Shown: positions 9,131 to 23,084 of the stretch, piece after piece
Position numbering within the stretch: position 1 is the first letter of the stretch
How the letters are laid out: each line of letters starts with the position of its first letter
Virus record (IMG/VR): IMGVR_UViG_3300036670_000056
Span: 1 to 23,085 of that record
From: a virus
Length of the DNA stretch: 23,085 nucleotides
Reading direction: 5' to 3' (one strand)
Program-made: the position numbers and the translations under genes
The notes under the pieces: generated by a model
Told to the model about the DNA's origin: nothing
The model's database searches: none
The model's input: only the letters and a program-made list of their open reading frames with translations

Positions 9131-9140
9131 TTATAACGAT
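9131..9140 (-). promoter_or_regulatory. Conserved ATCGTTATAA box, 4 nt before the tail-terminator-like start
   Basis: This is the first of three copies in transcription order. The minus strand reads TAGGTAATCGTTATAA, then TTAT, then ATG. It overlaps the methyltransferase stop codon (TAA at 9142-9140). The element and ATG context are nearly the same as at 2319-2328. Confidence 0.5.
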
Positions 9141-9895
9141 TACCTAGGATTTTTGTTTATTCGCTCGCTTGCTATGTCAAAATATCCCTGATCCATTTCT
9201 ATACCTATAAAGTTTCTATTAAGATTATTTGCAGCAACTCCAGTTGTTCCAGAACCCATGGTAAAATCTAAAACCGTTTCGTTTTCGTTGGTGTAGGTTT
9301 TTATCAAATATTCCATAACCTCCAAACATTTTTGAGTTGGATGCACACCCTTTCTTTTTGTTATAGTTTGCGAAAATGTTATTATACTTTTAGGATTTGT
9401 TCTTGTTGTGTCGTATTCATCAGACATTTTTACATTAAAACCTCCATAAAGTTTTTTATCTGTTTTCTTGTTGTTTTTTATAGCGTTCTTGGCTCTGTTT
9501 GGTCTTTGGTTTATTTTTGCTTTTGGTGTAAATTGTCTATTATAGGTACATTGTTTTTTGTAAAACACACAAATATCTTCGTGCTGTTTTAAAGGCATCC
9601 TTTTAGAGTTTAAATGTCCAGAGGGGTCTATTTTATCCCATACCCAACAATATTTGAACATTTTTGCATTACTCATTATTAAAGCACTTGTAAACGGTTG
9701 GCTACCAAAAAGAACAATAGCACCGTTTGGCTTTATAATCCTGTTTAACTGCTCCCACATTAACTCAAAATCAATTACACTATCCCATTTGCACGCAGTT
9801 GTCCCGTACGGAGGGTCTGTGATAATTGCATCTATACTATTATCTTTAATCGTTTTCATTACCTCTAGGCAATCGCCTAATCTTAAATCTATCAT
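9140..9895 (-). CDS. DNA (adenine-N6 or cytosine-N4) methyltransferase, DPPY type
   Basis: This 251-aa enzyme transfers a methyl group from S-adenosylmethionine to an amino group in DNA. Motif IV comes first (ITDPPYGTT, about 34-42), and the SAM-binding motif I is near the C-terminus (VLDFTMGSGTTGVAA), the beta-class order. GVHPTQKCLEVMEYLIKTYT precedes motif I as usual. The start is the ATG at 9895, one nt after the stop of the frameshifted chaperone frame. An upstream TTG start at 9979 would add 28 residues, but that DNA encodes the chaperone extension. It is a paralogue of the enzyme at 16268-17065 (shared TTACKWD, NRIIK, NGAIVL, SQPFT, FKYCW.WDKI). Its place between chaperone and tail genes suggests an inserted cargo gene. 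Confidence 0.9.
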   Translation of the reverse strand: MIDLRLGDCLEVMKTIKDNSIDAIITDPPYGTTACKWDSVIDFELMWEQLNRIIKPNGAIVLFGSQPFTSALIMSNAKMFKYCWVWDKIDPSGHLNSKRMPLKQHEDICVFYKKQCTYNRQFTPKAKINQRPNRAKNAIKNNKKTDKKLYGGFNVKMSDEYDTTRTNPKSIITFSQTITKRKGVHPTQKCLEVMEYLIKTYTNENETVLDFTMGSGTTGVAANNLNRNFIGIEMDQGYFDIASERINKNPR

Positions 9896-9896
9896 T

Positions 9897-10139
9897 TTAT
9901 GTTTTTTGTTTAGCCATTGTGTTAAGGTCGCTTTGGTACGCCATTTCCATAAACGCCTCGTGTATTCGCATTTGCTCAACTTGCTCTATCGTATAATTGA
10001 AAGCAGCGCATAGAACCCTTATGTGATGATACCAGCCCCATTTTTTACCGAAATTATTACGGATATTTGTCGCGTCGTTTACTTCCCCGCCTTGGAATAC
10101 TTCAGGGTAGAGGTTAACAAGTCGTCCCTTAAAGTCAAA
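9897..10139 (-). CDS. -1 frame extension of the tail-assembly chaperone (gpGT-like C-terminus)
   Basis: This frame has 80 sense codons and no start of its own at a sensible place. It is open from the slippery T run and reads FDFKGRLVNLYPEVFQGGEV, then a segment with FGKKWGWYHHI and a helical end (YTIEQVEQMRIHEAFMEMAY). The 'kkWGWy' element and the helical end resemble the T part of G/GT-type tail chaperones. With a -1 slip after codon 161 of the upstream gene, the fusion would be 241 aa. The stop TAA is one nt before the methyltransferase ATG, so the operon packing makes sense only if this frame is used. Ribosome slippage is inferred; the frame, run and spacing are seen. Confidence 0.75.
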   Translation of the reverse strand, partial: FDFKGRLVNLYPEVFQGGEVNDATNIRNNFGKKWGWYHHIRVLCAAFNYTIEQVEQMRIHEAFMEMAYQSDLNTMAKQKT

Positions 10140-16163: not shown

Positions 16164-16267
16164 TTGTTATTTATTTAGTTGTTAATTGTATTTATTTTTT
16201 TAAGTTTCACATATCCGATGTTATGTACAAGCACTACATTATCGTTTTAATTCAAGTTTTGTAGTAA

Positions 16268-17065
16268 TCATACCAAAATATTTTTAAAATCTCCCAAACG
16301 CTCTTTTATTATTTCATAATAATTAAGTTCTTTTTCAATTAGTATAAAATCTCTTTTCAAGTTTATACAAGCAACTCCAGTTGTTCCACTTCCCGCAACA
16401 TTATCTAAAACAATATCTCCTTCGTTTGTATAGGTTTTTATTAAGTATTCAAATAGTCTTACTGGTTTTTGTGTTGGGGCAAGTCTATTTAATGCGTTTA
16501 ATTCCCCTATCCTATTATTATATATAAGTTTATTTTTAGGATACCTTAAATTTTCATTATGCTTTTTAGATGTTTTAAAAACCCCACTTGCCATTCCTTG
16601 CGAATTAATATCTTTTCTTTCATAAGAGTTCTTTCTTGGTCGTTTGTTTTTATCTTCGGCTAATACCATTTGTGGATGGTAATTAATTTTATTGTTATTT
16701 TTTGAAAAAATACATATATCTTCAAAAACACTTAACGGTTTGTATTTTGCAGTAGCGAAGCCACCACTATTTATTTTATCCCAATACCAACAATATTTAA
16801 AAGATTTAATATTACTACCGATTAAAGCCGTAGTAAAAGGTTGTGATGCTGTTAATACAATTGCACCATTATCTTTTATAATTCTATTATATTGTTCCCA
16901 AAGTGGTTCAAAAGGTATAACTTCATCCCATTTACAAGCAGTTGTTCCGTAAGGTAAATCCGCAAGTATCATATCAATACTTTTGTCAGGTATATTTTGC
17001 ATTTCTACCAAACAATCTCCGTGTATTATTTTGCTTTTTTCAAAAGCATATTTGCCATCGCTCAT
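16268..17065 (-). CDS. DNA (adenine-N6 or cytosine-N4) methyltransferase, DLPY type
   Basis: This 265-aa enzyme (from the ATG at 17065) has motif IV as ADLPYGTT, with Leu in place of the first Pro of DPPY, and motif I near the C-terminus as VLDNVAGSGTTGVAC, preceded by RLAPTQKPVRLFEYLIKTYT. The order is beta-class. It is a clear paralogue of the enzyme at 9140-9895 (shared GTTACKWD, NRIIK.NGAIVL, SQPFT, FKYCW.WDKI). A TTG at 17095 would add ten residues (KHETKNIF...), but the ATG with an AAAATATTTTTAAA leader is more plausible. It is flanked by two non-coding stretches of about 100 nt in a compact region and is rich in A and T, which suggests separate acquisition. Confidence 0.9.
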   Translation of the reverse strand: MSDGKYAFEKSKIIHGDCLVEMQNIPDKSIDMILADLPYGTTACKWDEVIPFEPLWEQYNRIIKDNGAIVLTASQPFTTALIGSNIKSFKYCWYWDKINSGGFATAKYKPLSVFEDICIFSKNNNKINYHPQMVLAEDKNKRPRKNSYERKDINSQGMASGVFKTSKKHNENLRYPKNKLIYNNRIGELNALNRLAPTQKPVRLFEYLIKTYTNEGDIVLDNVAGSGTTGVACINLKRDFILIEKELNYYEIIKERLGDFKNILV

Positions 17066-17091
17066 TTTAAAAATATTTTTAGTTTCGTGTT

Positions 17092-17190
17092 TCAAATCAT
17101 CATTGTACTAAATTTACCGTGCCAGTACATAACACGTAATATATTTAATGGCGAAAAGCCACTAACCATATTACCATCCGTTGTAGGCAA
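17092..17190 (-). CDS. Possible 32-aa frame in the gap before the methyltransferase
   Basis: Starting at a TTG directly after the stop of 17191-17442, this frame reads LPTTDGNMVSGFSPLNILRV followed by MYWHGKFSTMMI. It is in the same frame as that gene, so it could be a readthrough tail, a separate tiny gene from an inner ATG at 17169, or a remnant. The residue pattern looks protein-like, but nothing else supports expression. Confidence 0.25.
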   Translation of the reverse strand: MPTTDGNMVSGFSPLNILRVMYWHGKFSTMMI

Positions 17191-18908: not shown

Positions 18909-19571
18909 TTAAAATACTAATTTAGTACTTTCAATAATCTCTTTACATAGTTCGTTTGGTATCTTACTTCTATTGTAGGATCCTTTTTTACCTTGTGTTC
19001 CTGTTGTCGCTCCACGTCTTGCGCTTTCGTGGTGGCAATGTCTATCAATTATTTCGCCTGTATCTTTTTTATATTTAAAGTTCTTGCACATTGGTTTTGA
19101 TTTCCAAGTTTTAGAGTTTGTCCATATATCTGTTGGTTTTGCCCTATCATCCCCATATTGGCAATACCATACCGTGTGCCTTTTAAATTCTTGCATCCAT
19201 TCCATATGTCGTAACATTCCTCTGGGGTTCTCGATAAAGAAAATAAGTTTAGGATTTTCAATTAACCATTCTTTTACTAGCCCAATCCAGTGTTTATTTA
19301 CTGTATCGCATTTTATAGCGTATTCGCTTTTTGGTTCTTTTGTGTTTGTTCGGTGCGTACTACAAGCCGCAATACTGTAAGTCGTGCAGTCTGGACTTGC
19401 CCAAACAACATCAGGAACAAAAGGTATATTTTCTTTTTGCAGTTCGCCTATATCAATACTTAAATCTATTTTATCATATGCCGTCCAATCTACGCTAAAA
19501 ACATTTAAACCTTGTTTTTCGGCTTCACTTCCTATACTTCTTGATCCTGCAAATAACTCTAATAAGTCCAT
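18909..19571 (-). CDS. C5-cytosine DNA methyltransferase-like enzyme with SPDC catalytic motif
   Basis: This 220-aa protein begins MDLLELFAGSRSIGSEAEKQ, the SAM-binding motif I (FAGSRSIG at 7-14, standing in for FaG.GG). VWASPDCTTYSIA (57-69) holds the candidate catalytic Cys at 62, with SPDC in place of the usual PPCQ. FFIENPRGMLRH (111-122) matches the ENV motif (ENP here). CQYGDDRAKPTDIWTN (137-152) may stand in for the QxRxR motif. It is shorter than typical cytosine-C5 enzymes (over 300 aa), with little room for a target recognition domain. The changed motifs leave open a different pyrimidine modification or a non-specific enzyme. It lies directly after the primase-helicase. Confidence 0.75.
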   Translation of the reverse strand: MDLLELFAGSRSIGSEAEKQGLNVFSVDWTAYDKIDLSIDIGELQKENIPFVPDVVWASPDCTTYSIAACSTHRTNTKEPKSEYAIKCDTVNKHWIGLVKEWLIENPKLIFFIENPRGMLRHMEWMQEFKRHTVWYCQYGDDRAKPTDIWTNSKTWKSKPMCKNFKYKKDTGEIIDRHCHHESARRGATTGTQGKKGSYNRSKIPNELCKEIIESTKLVF

Positions 19572-19603: not shown

Positions 19604-21409
19604 TTAAAAAGGAATCTCATCATTATCAAACGCTTCTTGCGGTGTCTTAAAACTAAAGACTTCTTTTACTTCCTGCGTAGTATCTAATGTTGGCAAACCG
19701 TCAGCAAGCGCAAAAGGCGGGTAACTTTTACCTAGTGGAAAATATCTACTACTAGGCATATCATAAGTAAATCTTGCGCTTTGTCCGATTGTACCTTGAA
19801 AGCTGTATTTTGTTTTTAGGTTTACAAATTCTGTCTGGTCATTCTCTGGGTTTTCTGCATCAAAATGTCTGTAAATACAAAACCCGTCATGCGTTTGGTT
19901 TCTAAAGTCCGCGCTTCCTGCAACATCGTAAAGCGTTGGTGCAGGATATATGCCGTTATCTTGCTTTTTGCCCTTAGTCGGGTGCGCTACTAAGAATATT
20001 ATCACGTTGTGCATCTGTGCAAATGTAGTTAATTCTGTTAATACCGTGTTTATTTGCTCGTATCGGTTGCCGTTTTCGTTAAAAAGTACTTTGTTGAACG
20101 CGTCAATTACAAAAATATCTATGCCATAATTAAACATTTGTTCTTTAAACTTCTCTAGTAGCCATGACCATGTAGGTTTTTCGTTTTGGTCTGGTGCGGT
20201 TAAGTATATTTTCTCGTTTGCCCATTGCTCATAAACGTCTATTTGTTCTCGTGTAATCCTAGGAACGCCATTTGAACTACTAAAAAACGGCTGACCAAAG
20301 TACTTTTGTATGAAATTACTATGGTGCAATCTCATTGGGTTATGCTCTGGACTGAACCAACTCGCTTTCATGTCGTGATCGTTGCATAAATTCATAGCGT
20401 ACCAATCTGTAAAATTAGACTTTCCATGACTAGGAATACCAGTTCCCGTAACTAAATGCCCGCGCATTACGCTAAAAATACTGTTTAATTCGCTGAACCA
20501 TTCGCCCGTTGGCTTAATTGTTTCGGGTAAACCATTATCGTACAGGTCATAAATACCCTGCTTTAAATCCTTTACCGTGAATGTTCCTGTTACTGGGTAC
20601 TTTGTAAAGTTGTTTAAAGACGTTTTAAGCACTTCTAAGCCACTTAACAAATCATCATTAGCATCTTTGCCATTAAACTCTATTCGTGCGCAGCGATAAC
20701 GTCCTAGGCGTTGTGCTATCTTCTCGCTAAGTGCTTGACCTTTATCGTCCATGTCAGTAGCGATATAAAACTTCTTAACATCGGTAAGGTACTGTTTTGA
20801 GTTTTCCCATACATCGTCATTGTCGTTTGCACCGTTTGGTACGCTAATGCAATTTTTAAAACCCGCTTCGTACATTGCAAGTTTGTCTAGTTCCCCCTCA
20901 ACTATGTAGACATTTTCGCAGCCTATAATATCGTTAATTCCGTAAAAAATATTTTTAGTTCCTTTGCTTTGCGTGAAATGCTTCCCACCAGAACGGTATT
21001 TTTTATTAACCAAAGTATCTCGCTCAAAGTAATTAAAAACAATGTTACTGACTTCTTTACCTATTGCGGGCTGGTAATATTTTTCTTCTGTTATGCCGCA
21101 ATTTATTAAAGTACTTTGACTTATGGCGCGAATGTCTTTAAACCATTTTACGATGTTATCGCTTAACGCGGTGTAGTTTCTCCAGTCTTGTTTCGGTAAT
21201 TCATACGGCTTATCCTGTGGTGTTTGCTGGCTATCTTTAAATCCTAATGTTTCGCAGTTAAAACATTTTGCCACACCGCTATCTAAATTCACGTATAAGC
21301 ACGGGTCTTTTTTCTTTTTGCGGTCATGTGAGCATTTCGGGCAAATAGTTTTTGTAATGCCTTTTATTTTTGTAGTGGGTATCTCATCCCAGTTTATAAA
21401 GTCTTGCAT
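19604..21409 (-). CDS. Primase-helicase, T7 gp4/Twinkle-like (zinc ribbon, TOPRIM, RecA-type helicase)
   Basis: This 601-aa replication protein joins primase and helicase parts. The zinc ribbon has CPKC (23-26) and CFNC (49-52). The TOPRIM domain has VYIVEGELDKLAM (167-179, Glu 171) and FYIATDMDDKG (214-224). The helicase has an atypical Walker A, GIPSHGKS (324-331), Walker B DIFVID (431-436), IIFLVAHPTKG (470-480) and the GSADFRNQTHDGFCIYR region. The C-terminus is FDNDEIPF, which looks like the SSB tip. It starts 4 nt after the initiator stop and begins MQDFINWDEI. Family length is normal. Primase activity is inferred from the domains; I did not find an unusual break. Confidence 0.9.
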   Translation of the reverse strand: MQDFINWDEIPTTKIKGITKTICPKCSHDRKKKKDPCLYVNLDSGVAKCFNCETLGFKDSQQTPQDKPYELPKQDWRNYTALSDNIVKWFKDIRAISQSTLINCGITEEKYYQPAIGKEVSNIVFNYFERDTLVNKKYRSGGKHFTQSKGTKNIFYGINDIIGCENVYIVEGELDKLAMYEAGFKNCISVPNGANDNDDVWENSKQYLTDVKKFYIATDMDDKGQALSEKIAQRLGRYRCARIEFNGKDANDDLLSGLEVLKTSLNNFTKYPVTGTFTVKDLKQGIYDLYDNGLPETIKPTGEWFSELNSIFSVMRGHLVTGTGIPSHGKSNFTDWYAMNLCNDHDMKASWFSPEHNPMRLHHSNFIQKYFGQPFFSSSNGVPRITREQIDVYEQWANEKIYLTAPDQNEKPTWSWLLEKFKEQMFNYGIDIFVIDAFNKVLFNENGNRYEQINTVLTELTTFAQMHNVIIFLVAHPTKGKKQDNGIYPAPTLYDVAGSADFRNQTHDGFCIYRHFDAENPENDQTEFVNLKTKYSFQGTIGQSARFTYDMPSSRYFPLGKSYPPFALADGLPTLDTTQEVKEVFSFKTPQEAFDNDEIPF

Positions 21410-21413
21410 AATT

Positions 21414-22094
21414 TTAACCTTGAAAATGATAGTTAGCGCGTTTAGGTGCTTCCGTTGGTTTTACTTCTTGCTTGTTTAACCAATGCGTAAAGTGTGAACC
21501 GTAATCTTTAAAATTGTTTTTTTTGTCTAGGGTTGCCAAAAGTAAAGCATCGTATTCATTTAATTTACTTTTAACCGTAGGTAAATCTCGCTTAGTTGCT
21601 CGGCAAACATTTTCTAACCATGAATTAGAATTTAAAGCCCTTTGTAAAAAATCATTTGTATATAAATTATCTTCTTTTATTTTATCTTCTTTTATTTTCT
21701 CTTCTCTTATGGCTTTCGTTTCGCTTTCATTTGGCTTTAAGTTCGCTTTCGTTTCGCTTTCGTTTCGCTTTTCACTTTTAGGTCTACCACCCTTTGAACC
21801 GTTGGTACTGTTGGTTTTGCTTTGTGAAGTAGCTTTTAAAAATTGGTCATCTAAAAACTTAATTTTAACTTGATTTTCTTGCAAATCTATGATTCCCTCA
21901 TTAATTAGTTCATCAAACTCTTGAGGGTAATTTAGCCGTCTTAAAAATTGGTCTTTAGTCAATTTACATTCTCTTTGCCAATAATAAGCGCAGGCATTTA
22001 TAAACAATCCTTGCACCGCTAAAGAGCAAAAAGAGATATCTTTTGTTAAATATTCTGCTGGTTCAAATTGAAAATATGGAAGTTCCTTTGCCAT
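21414..22094 (-). CDS. Phage replication initiator / replisome organiser
   Basis: This 226-aa protein has a likely winged-helix N-terminal half (MAKELPYFQFEPAEYLTKDI, SLAVQGLFINACAYYWQREC, RLNYPQEFDELINEGIIDL), similar to DUF1376/DUF4373-type phage initiators. A low-complexity, Lys/Glu-rich linker follows (about 98-145, GSKGGRPKSEKRNESETKAN, NESETKA, then KIKEDKIKED). The C-terminal helical domain (VCRATKRDLPTVKSKLNEYD, FKDYGSHFTHWLNKQE) is like the helicase-loading ends of such proteins. It stands just before the primase-helicase, as lambda O precedes P. The linker codons contain an 11-bp tandem array and an AT-rich tract (21669-21771), a candidate origin. Confidence 0.75.
   Translation of the reverse strand: MAKELPYFQFEPAEYLTKDISFCSLAVQGLFINACAYYWQRECKLTKDQFLRRLNYPQEFDELINEGIIDLQENQVKIKFLDDQFLKATSQSKTNSTNGSKGGRPKSEKRNESETKANLKPNESETKAIREEKIKEDKIKEDNLYTNDFLQRALNSNSWLENVCRATKRDLPTVKSKLNEYDALLLATLDKKNNFKDYGSHFTHWLNKQEVKPTEAPKRANYHFQG
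21669..21771. repeat. 11-bp tandem array plus AT-rich tract inside the initiator gene, candidate replication origin
   Basis: At 21717-21771 five consecutive 11-bp units occur (plus strand CGTTTCGCTTT at 21717, 21750 and 21761; CATTTGGCTTT at 21728; AAGTTCGCTTT at 21739). Eleven is not a multiple of three, so the repeat is not a simple peptide repeat. Directly beside it, 21669-21698 is an exact 15-bp tandem duplication (ATCTTCTTTTATTTT twice), pyrimidine-rich and easily melted. Iterons next to an AT-rich strand-biased tract within the initiator gene is the lambda ori/O layout. Function is inferred. Confidence 0.55.
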
Positions 22095-22454: not shown

Positions 22455-23084
22455 TTAAAACATTTTTAGTTGTTGCTGGTGCTGCTTTAGTCTTAGCATA
22501 GCCGCGTCGTAGTACTCTTTGTCTAATTCGCAAGCTGTTAGATCGTACTTTAGATTGTGGCACGCTAAGGCTATTGAGCCAGAGCCTAGGTGCGTGTCTA
22601 GTATATTGTCGCCCTCTTTTGCGTAGTTCATTAAAATCCATTCGTAAAGTTTAACGGGTTTTTGTGTTGGGTGGATTTTAACCTCTTTGTTTTTCATGTC
22701 GTGTTGTATCATTCCATTCCATGTGCATTCATAAACCTTTACGCTTTTGTGAGTTGAGCAAATTGCTAGTTCAGCCTCGCCAAATGCAGTTCCATTCTTT
22801 TGCCAAACAATAGCTCCACCGCATAAGCCTAAGTAGTTTCCTCCCCAAACTATTTGATTTTTAGAAACTCTTTCTAGTTCAATGTAATACTTATCTTCAG
22901 GAGCTAAATTATCAAACAATTTATAATTAGTTCTTTTAGTTGCTTGTTTTCCGCTCTTTTTATTATCTATTAATCCTATCGCATCAATGTTCTGGTAAGG
23001 CGGATCAACAATAGCTAAATCAAAGTGATTATCAGGATAGCGAGCCATTAACTCCATGTTATCTTCGTTGCTTATATTTATCAT
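22455..23084 (-). CDS. DNA adenine-type methyltransferase, DPPY type
   Basis: This 209-aa protein starts MINISNEDNMELMARYPDNH at the window edge; the ATG at 23084-23082 matches the normal start for this family, but an extension beyond the window cannot be excluded. Motif IV, LAIVDPPYQN (23-32), comes first and motif I, ILDTHLGSGSIALAC, near the C-terminus, preceded by KIHPTQKPVKLYEWILMNYA, the beta-class order. QIVWGGNYLG and GAIVWQKNGT lie between. It is only distantly related to the two paralogous enzymes in this window. It is followed by the early promoter. Target sequence is unknown. Confidence 0.9.
   Translation of the reverse strand: MINISNEDNMELMARYPDNHFDLAIVDPPYQNIDAIGLIDNKKSGKQATKRTNYKLFDNLAPEDKYYIELERVSKNQIVWGGNYLGLCGGAIVWQKNGTAFGEAELAICSTHKSVKVYECTWNGMIQHDMKNKEVKIHPTQKPVKLYEWILMNYAKEGDNILDTHLGSGSIALACHNLKYDLTACELDKEYYDAAMLRLKQHQQQLKMF

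Follow-up and report, generated by a model that had tools for sequence, protein, structure and literature searches.

Could a short stretch of phage DNA that lies within a coding sequence and repeats in steps of 11 bp serve as an origin of replication? We addressed this question with a 23,085-nt stretch of DNA from an IMG/VR virus record (IMGVR_UViG_3300036670_000056, positions 1 to 23,085), referred to here as the window, for which a sequence-only reading had proposed a lambda-like origin inside an initiator gene. Our results support that proposal. The segment is very probably a phage replication origin on the plan of lambda, placed within the linker-coding part of the phage's own initiator gene, with iterons spaced by one helical turn and a melting tract phased in pentamers. 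DNA binding, opening of the duplex, strand capture, helicase recruitment, and replication itself are steps that we infer.

An initiator-type gene and its linker

The gene that contains the segment (positions 21414 to 22094, minus strand) encodes a protein of 226 amino acids. This protein matched phrog_29280 in PHROGs (E 1.3e-71), where its weak neighbors were two primosomal-protein families, and it matched DUF7833 in Pfam over residues 152 to 208. It adjoins the next gene downstream (19604 to 21409, minus strand), which family matches identify as a TOPRIM primase-helicase. These matches fit the earlier reading of the gene as one that looks like an initiator and precedes the primase-helicase. 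Among related phages, a primase or primase-helicase follows the initiator gene in phi19:1, morran9-1, and Nekkels_1, with one HNH gene between them in phi19:1, while the gene in this place in Arctus_1 is annotated as a "DNA replication protein." The initiator of these flavobacterial-type phages is annotated as a "hypothetical protein," and our analysis provides the group with a concrete origin candidate.

The AlphaFold model of the protein contains a winged helix at about residues 25 to 77, a helix that continues to residue 100, a disordered stretch from 109 to 144, and a helical C-terminal domain from 146 to 209. Confidence was high over residues 21 to 80 (pLDDT of about 90), which comprise helices and a beta-hairpin. 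On the minus strand, the N-terminal domain (residues 1 to 85) corresponds to 21840 to 22094 and the C-terminal domain to 21468 to 21659; the stretch predicted to be disordered falls in the same place as the DNA element described below. A structure search with the N-terminal domain returned middling matches to many winged-helix domains (Z 6 to 7), the best of which (Z 7.3) lies in a range that the tool calls common. We propose that this domain binds the iterons and that the C-terminal domain, which is exchanged among relatives, is the part that recruits the replisome. At the thresholds used, the protein had no match in Pfam or PHROGs to the lambda O (Phage_rep_O) or DnaD families, nor did it match a plasmid Rep family in either database, and no solved relatives were found by sequence. 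A remote relation to lambda O may still exist despite the missing sequence match.

Other parts of the window also carry features of interest. By eye, the open reading frames at 9140 to 9979, 16268 to 17095, and 22455 to 23084 resemble DNA adenine methylases (DPPY motif), and the one at 18909 to 19571 resembles a cytosine methylase. In addition, a short AT-rich tandem repeat, TTAT-like and with a 17-bp period, is found at 16164 to 16202, just upstream of a DUF3127/SSB-like gene.

Two phased arrays and their conservation

The coding (minus) strand carries six 11-bp units at 21711 to 21776, five of them strong, in a register anchored on the adjoining tract. Along the coding strand their order is AGTGAAAAGCG AAACGAAAGCG AAACGAAAGCG AACTTAAAGCC AAATGAAAGCG AAACGAAAGCC. 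Numbered by increasing position, the units occupy 21711 to 21721 (AAACGAAAGCC), 21722 to 21732 (AAATGAAAGCG), 21733 to 21743 (AACTTAAAGCC), 21744 to 21754 (AAACGAAAGCG), 21755 to 21765 (AAACGAAAGCG), and 21766 to 21776 (AGTGAAAAGCG), all on the minus strand. The five units named previously are present in exact 11-bp register and three of them are identical: the plus-strand letters at 21717, 21728, 21739, 21750, and 21761 are CGTTTCGCTTT, CATTTGGCTTT, AAGTTCGCTTT, CGTTTCGCTTT, and CGTTTCGCTTT. The total is six rather than five, with the last unit being degenerate (7/11 match to the array consensus). TRF assigned 5.5 copies to the array and the top tandem-repeat score in the window (85). Furthermore, the lag-11 score over 49 positions was 41 for the array, compared to 26 for the best segment elsewhere in the window (>100 nt away) and a maximum of 34 in 300 first-order Markov simulations of the window, taking the best over lags 5 to 30.

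Next to the iterons, at 21666 to 21710 on the minus strand, is an AT-rich, purine-biased tract of nine consecutive ANAAN pentamers; the longest other run in the window, counting both strands, has 3. This tract had been described as a 15-bp tandem duplication, of which TRF counted 2.9 copies. Its AT richness and purine/pyrimidine bias hold, but the true unit is 5 bp, with three pentamers per 15 bp. The pyrimidine fraction on the plus strand is 0.89, which ranks first among the 23042 stretches of 44 bp in the window, and the duplex of the tract's 50-bp window is the 36th least stable of 23035. We propose that the tract serves as an unwinding and single-strand capture element.

Both arrays are conserved at the DNA level beyond what the peptide needs. 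From viral contigs we fetched 76 relatives; 19 nonredundant homologues were used in codon-identity and fixed-interval lag tests. For the null expectation of the lag tests, the protein and each gene's own codons were held fixed while synonymous codons were permuted. Lags of 11 and 22 stood out against these shuffles in most relatives. Specifically, lag 11 in the 66 nt upstream of the anchor had a z of 14.5 (P < 0.05 in 17 of 19 genes) and lag 5 in the 40 nt downstream had a z of 9.9 (P < 0.05 in 15 of 19), values that sum related genes as if they were independent and so overstate certainty. That the genes are related is not enough to produce the signal, since ten tests on control intervals in the N- and C-terminal domains of the same 19 genes were flat (z −2.5 to 1.0). 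When lambda O was run through the lag test as a positive control, it yielded lags of 20, 44, 23, 24, 47, and 68, against annotated iteron spacings of 20, 24, and 23 and the sums of these.

Codon usage gave a similar picture. Across the 19 homologues, codon identity at residue-identical positions was 0.93 in codons 121 to 135, compared to an expectation of 0.51 (peak ratio of 1.83), and was 0.88 to 0.93 over the tract, compared to 0.51 to 0.57. Elsewhere, the ratio to expectation ranged from 0.90 to 1.13 over codons 1 to 95 and from 0.84 to 1.15 beyond codon 151; the rise is confined to the linker element and the codons leading up to it, beginning near codon 86. We also looked for homologues without a repeat in the linker, as such cases would have spoken against the proposed origin. 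The repeat was present, and synonymous sites in the linker were conserved rather than free. No clear 11-bp array was seen in the distant members L055-L057 and L060. Finally, the pentamers place TnnT on the complementary (pyrimidine) strand to a degree that exceeds the synonymous null (z 6.4, or 7.5 in one phase), and a consensus A at positions 5k and 5k+3, with TnnT in register, recurs in nearly all of 28 genes.

Alternative explanations and known origins

An argument can be made that selection acts on the linker as a flexible, charged, Lys/Glu-rich peptide, with the repeats arising from slippage and low complexity and having no function as DNA. At the peptide level, the tract does yield a motif of five residues (KIKED) that repeats, and the iterons yield an 11-residue repeat (NESETKANLKP / NESETKA; 33 bp make 11 codons), while the linker is predicted to be disordered and the I-R-E-D-K motif is common to many initiators. 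This peptide repeat is a correction to the original reading, in which the DNA rather than the peptide seemed to be conserved because 11 is not a multiple of three. Yet lags of 11 and 22 bp do not keep the reading frame and call for an explanation at the level of DNA; together with lag 5 they lie far above shuffles that preserve the peptide and the codon usage of the gene. The conservation of synonymous codons across homologues also speaks against a peptide-level cause, as does a shift in codon choice within the tract: in ED/EEKI, the AAG:AAA ratio for Lys is 42:19 versus 355:1290 elsewhere, and ATA accounts for 92 of 100 Ile codons versus 445 of 956. We consider this explanation already disfavored and very improbable.

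The iterons vary among relatives in a manner that bears on a further possibility. In the close group, the units follow AA(A/T)NNAAA(G/C)C(C/G) in fixed register with the tract. Their number, which alignment with related phages had been expected to clarify, is nearly constant, being mostly 6 (range 5 to 7, with one 9, at a lenient threshold of 6/11 matches). Other groups have repeats of the ATAGC, TTAAGCCACCC, or GATGCG type. Iteron similarity was correlated with N-domain identity (Mantel r 0.46, 0 of 5000 permutations) and less so with C-domain similarity (0.17), showing that iteron sequence tracks the N-terminal domain, a correlation to which shared ancestry and physical linkage can contribute in part. 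The C-terminal domains were unrelated in 167 of 232 pairs with close N-terminal domains, and matches to most relatives end at residues 128 to 150. Moreover, phi19:1 and Nekkels_1 have nearly the same C-terminal domain (92 of 99 residues and 286 of 300 bases identical), whereas only 37 of 84 residues are identical in the N-terminal domain and the iterons differ, with AAACC-type units in phi19:1 and TTCAA units in Nekkels_1 (spacings of 11, 11, and 33), both 11-bp spaced. The pair represents a natural exchange of domains at the linker. The linker DNA might then be kept similar by homologous recombination that swaps C-terminal domains between phages, and the unrelated pairs and the phi19:1/Nekkels_1 swap fit such a view. 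However, homology accounts neither for the 11- and 5-bp phasing nor for iterons that change with the N-terminal domain, making recombination a most unlikely cause of the element; it is probably a consequence of the origin being located there.

Alternatively, the iterons might act as an autoregulatory operator, at which the bound protein represses its own operon, and not as a site for starting replication. The case for such an operator comes from general knowledge and from no tool result: repeats bound by the protein encoded alongside them are common operators, and initiators often regulate themselves. Against it, the site occupies a place some 320 to 430 bp into the coding sequence, the pentamer tract that follows in fixed register is strand-asymmetric and of low stability, and the arrangement matches the origin of lambda. 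We give very little credence to an operator in place of an origin, while operator function may be an additional role of the site.

If the segment is an origin, copies of the winged-helix domain would bind the six iterons, one per helical turn and on one face of the DNA, and the resulting nucleoprotein array would open the adjoining 45-bp tract. Owing to the pentamer phasing, a single motif would then recur at 5-nt intervals along the exposed strands, with TnnT on the pyrimidine strand, and the initiator or a partner would capture one strand. Recruitment of the phage primase-helicase, the product of the next gene, would fall to the C-terminal domain. Should the pentamers prove to be a strand-capture code, the way in which phage helicases are placed on one particular strand could be tested directly. 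Support for a lambda-like origin comes from the linker between a winged-helix and a helical domain, the neighboring primase-helicase, the one-turn spacing, and the purine-asymmetric, low-stability tract. GC skew, which had been suggested as a check, was uninformative, being monotone in phi19:1, the one complete relative analyzed, without a turn at the site. There was no DnaA box near the site, and the origin model does not require one; the window has a single match, far away, which is fewer than expected by chance. The phi19:1 protein gp042 (KC821607.1, 17110 to 17553) is annotated with a DnaA domain and might subject the origin to a further level of control.

In lambda, iterons and an AT-rich, purine-asymmetric tract are located in the linker-coding part of gene O (PMC5043065, PMC7466680). 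The window likewise has tandem sites within an initiator gene, between its N- and C-terminal domains, and an adjoining AT-rich, strand-asymmetric tract. In contrast to the four 18- to 19-bp inverted-repeat iterons of lambda, which O dimers occupy at spacings of 20 to 24 bp, the window has about six 11-bp direct repeats, which are too short for a lambda-type palindrome. The two also differ in that the tract of the window has a 5-bp period, the next gene encodes a primase-helicase where lambda has a P-type loader, and the protein has no detected homology to O. By analogy, the site would work like the origin of lambda, yet it falls outside the lambda O family in iteron form and sequence match.

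Plasmid iterons are about 17 to 22 bp long; their initiators belong to the Rep family, and DnaA boxes are usually present. The window differs in having 11-bp units, a protein of another family, a location inside a gene, and no DnaA box nearby. Nevertheless, it shares with plasmid iteron origins (RK2, P1, F, R6K class) the helix-phased direct repeats beside an AT-rich region (PMC5043065). The tract, in turn, resembles the DnaA-trios and DnaD Recognition Element of Bacillus oriC, where a short motif is regularly repeated in the melted strand. Bacillus DnaD recognizes TnnT motifs that occur in pairs on one strand (PMC10201434), and the window also repeats TnnT on one strand, although DnaA-trios are trinucleotides as opposed to a period of 5, no DnaD domain was detected in the protein with Pfam, and the structure search mainly returned generic winged helices. 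The comparison with DnaD is therefore an analogy. We found no published description of such an arrangement in a search that lay mostly outside subscription journals, so a prior description is possible.

The pentamer tract in other initiators

A search with the tract sequence recovered 70 viral contig stretches. Matches from outside the family lie in initiator-type proteins without evident similarity to the 226-aa protein, several of which match replication-initiation families, and the I-R-E-D-K motif recurs in many initiators. Upstream of the tract, lag 11 alone was clearly raised (mean z 1.94, in a set that includes one truncated family member, L106), for example in L154 (CAAGCGTCAAC), L179, and L195, the last in a Clostridiales genome (ATGCGACCGCA). 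In viral contigs, the proteins of L154 and L195 had too few relatives to support another test of synonymous sites. From Phage_rep_org_N we obtained a single usable match, whose linker was masked, along with weak ones that resemble regulators.

As an independent sample, we chose Lin1244_N initiators from Bacillota genomes by protein domain. This sample showed a 5-bp period of AAAGT pentamers (mean lag-5 z 3.5 over 11 genes) and on average no 11-bp iterons (mean lag-11 z 0.4); three further genes had lag-11 z values of 1.1, 3.3, and 3.7. The idea that 11-bp spacing is universal was rejected on account of this average. Bacteroidota Lin1244_N genes were mixed: L234 had both parts in the same geometry (lag-11 z 6.3) and L232 had 11- and 22-bp spacing, while an 11-bp array was not seen in L228.

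It is conceivable, at a likelihood that we put somewhat below even, that the pentamer tract is a code by which single strands are recognized at phage origins in general, akin to DnaA-trios and the DnaD Recognition Element, and that initiator families with no relation to one another share it in Bacteroidota, Bacillota, and further hosts. Iterons would then be the interchangeable, initiator-specific part, and the linker a joint for swapping DNA-binding and helicase-recruiting domains. More generally, sequence alone might suffice to locate origins in other phages, by searching initiator linkers for a pentamer tract, a short lag that is out of frame, and conserved synonymous sites.

Among the Lin1244_N loci of Bacillota and Bacteroidota, L213-L226 and L229 are prophage-type initiators whose iterons are unrelated to those of the window; most have AAAGT tracts, often after a similar CCACAAAGTAAAG edge. 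The linker of L227 contains consecutive AAACAG hexamers (encoding TETETETE) in place of pentamers, which may be a different type of tract or simple slippage. Finally, L183 (5375 to 5446) and L186 (8483 to 8540), both in reverse-strand coordinates, have more tandem KIRED-coding copies than the window, which suggests that tract length varies between phages.
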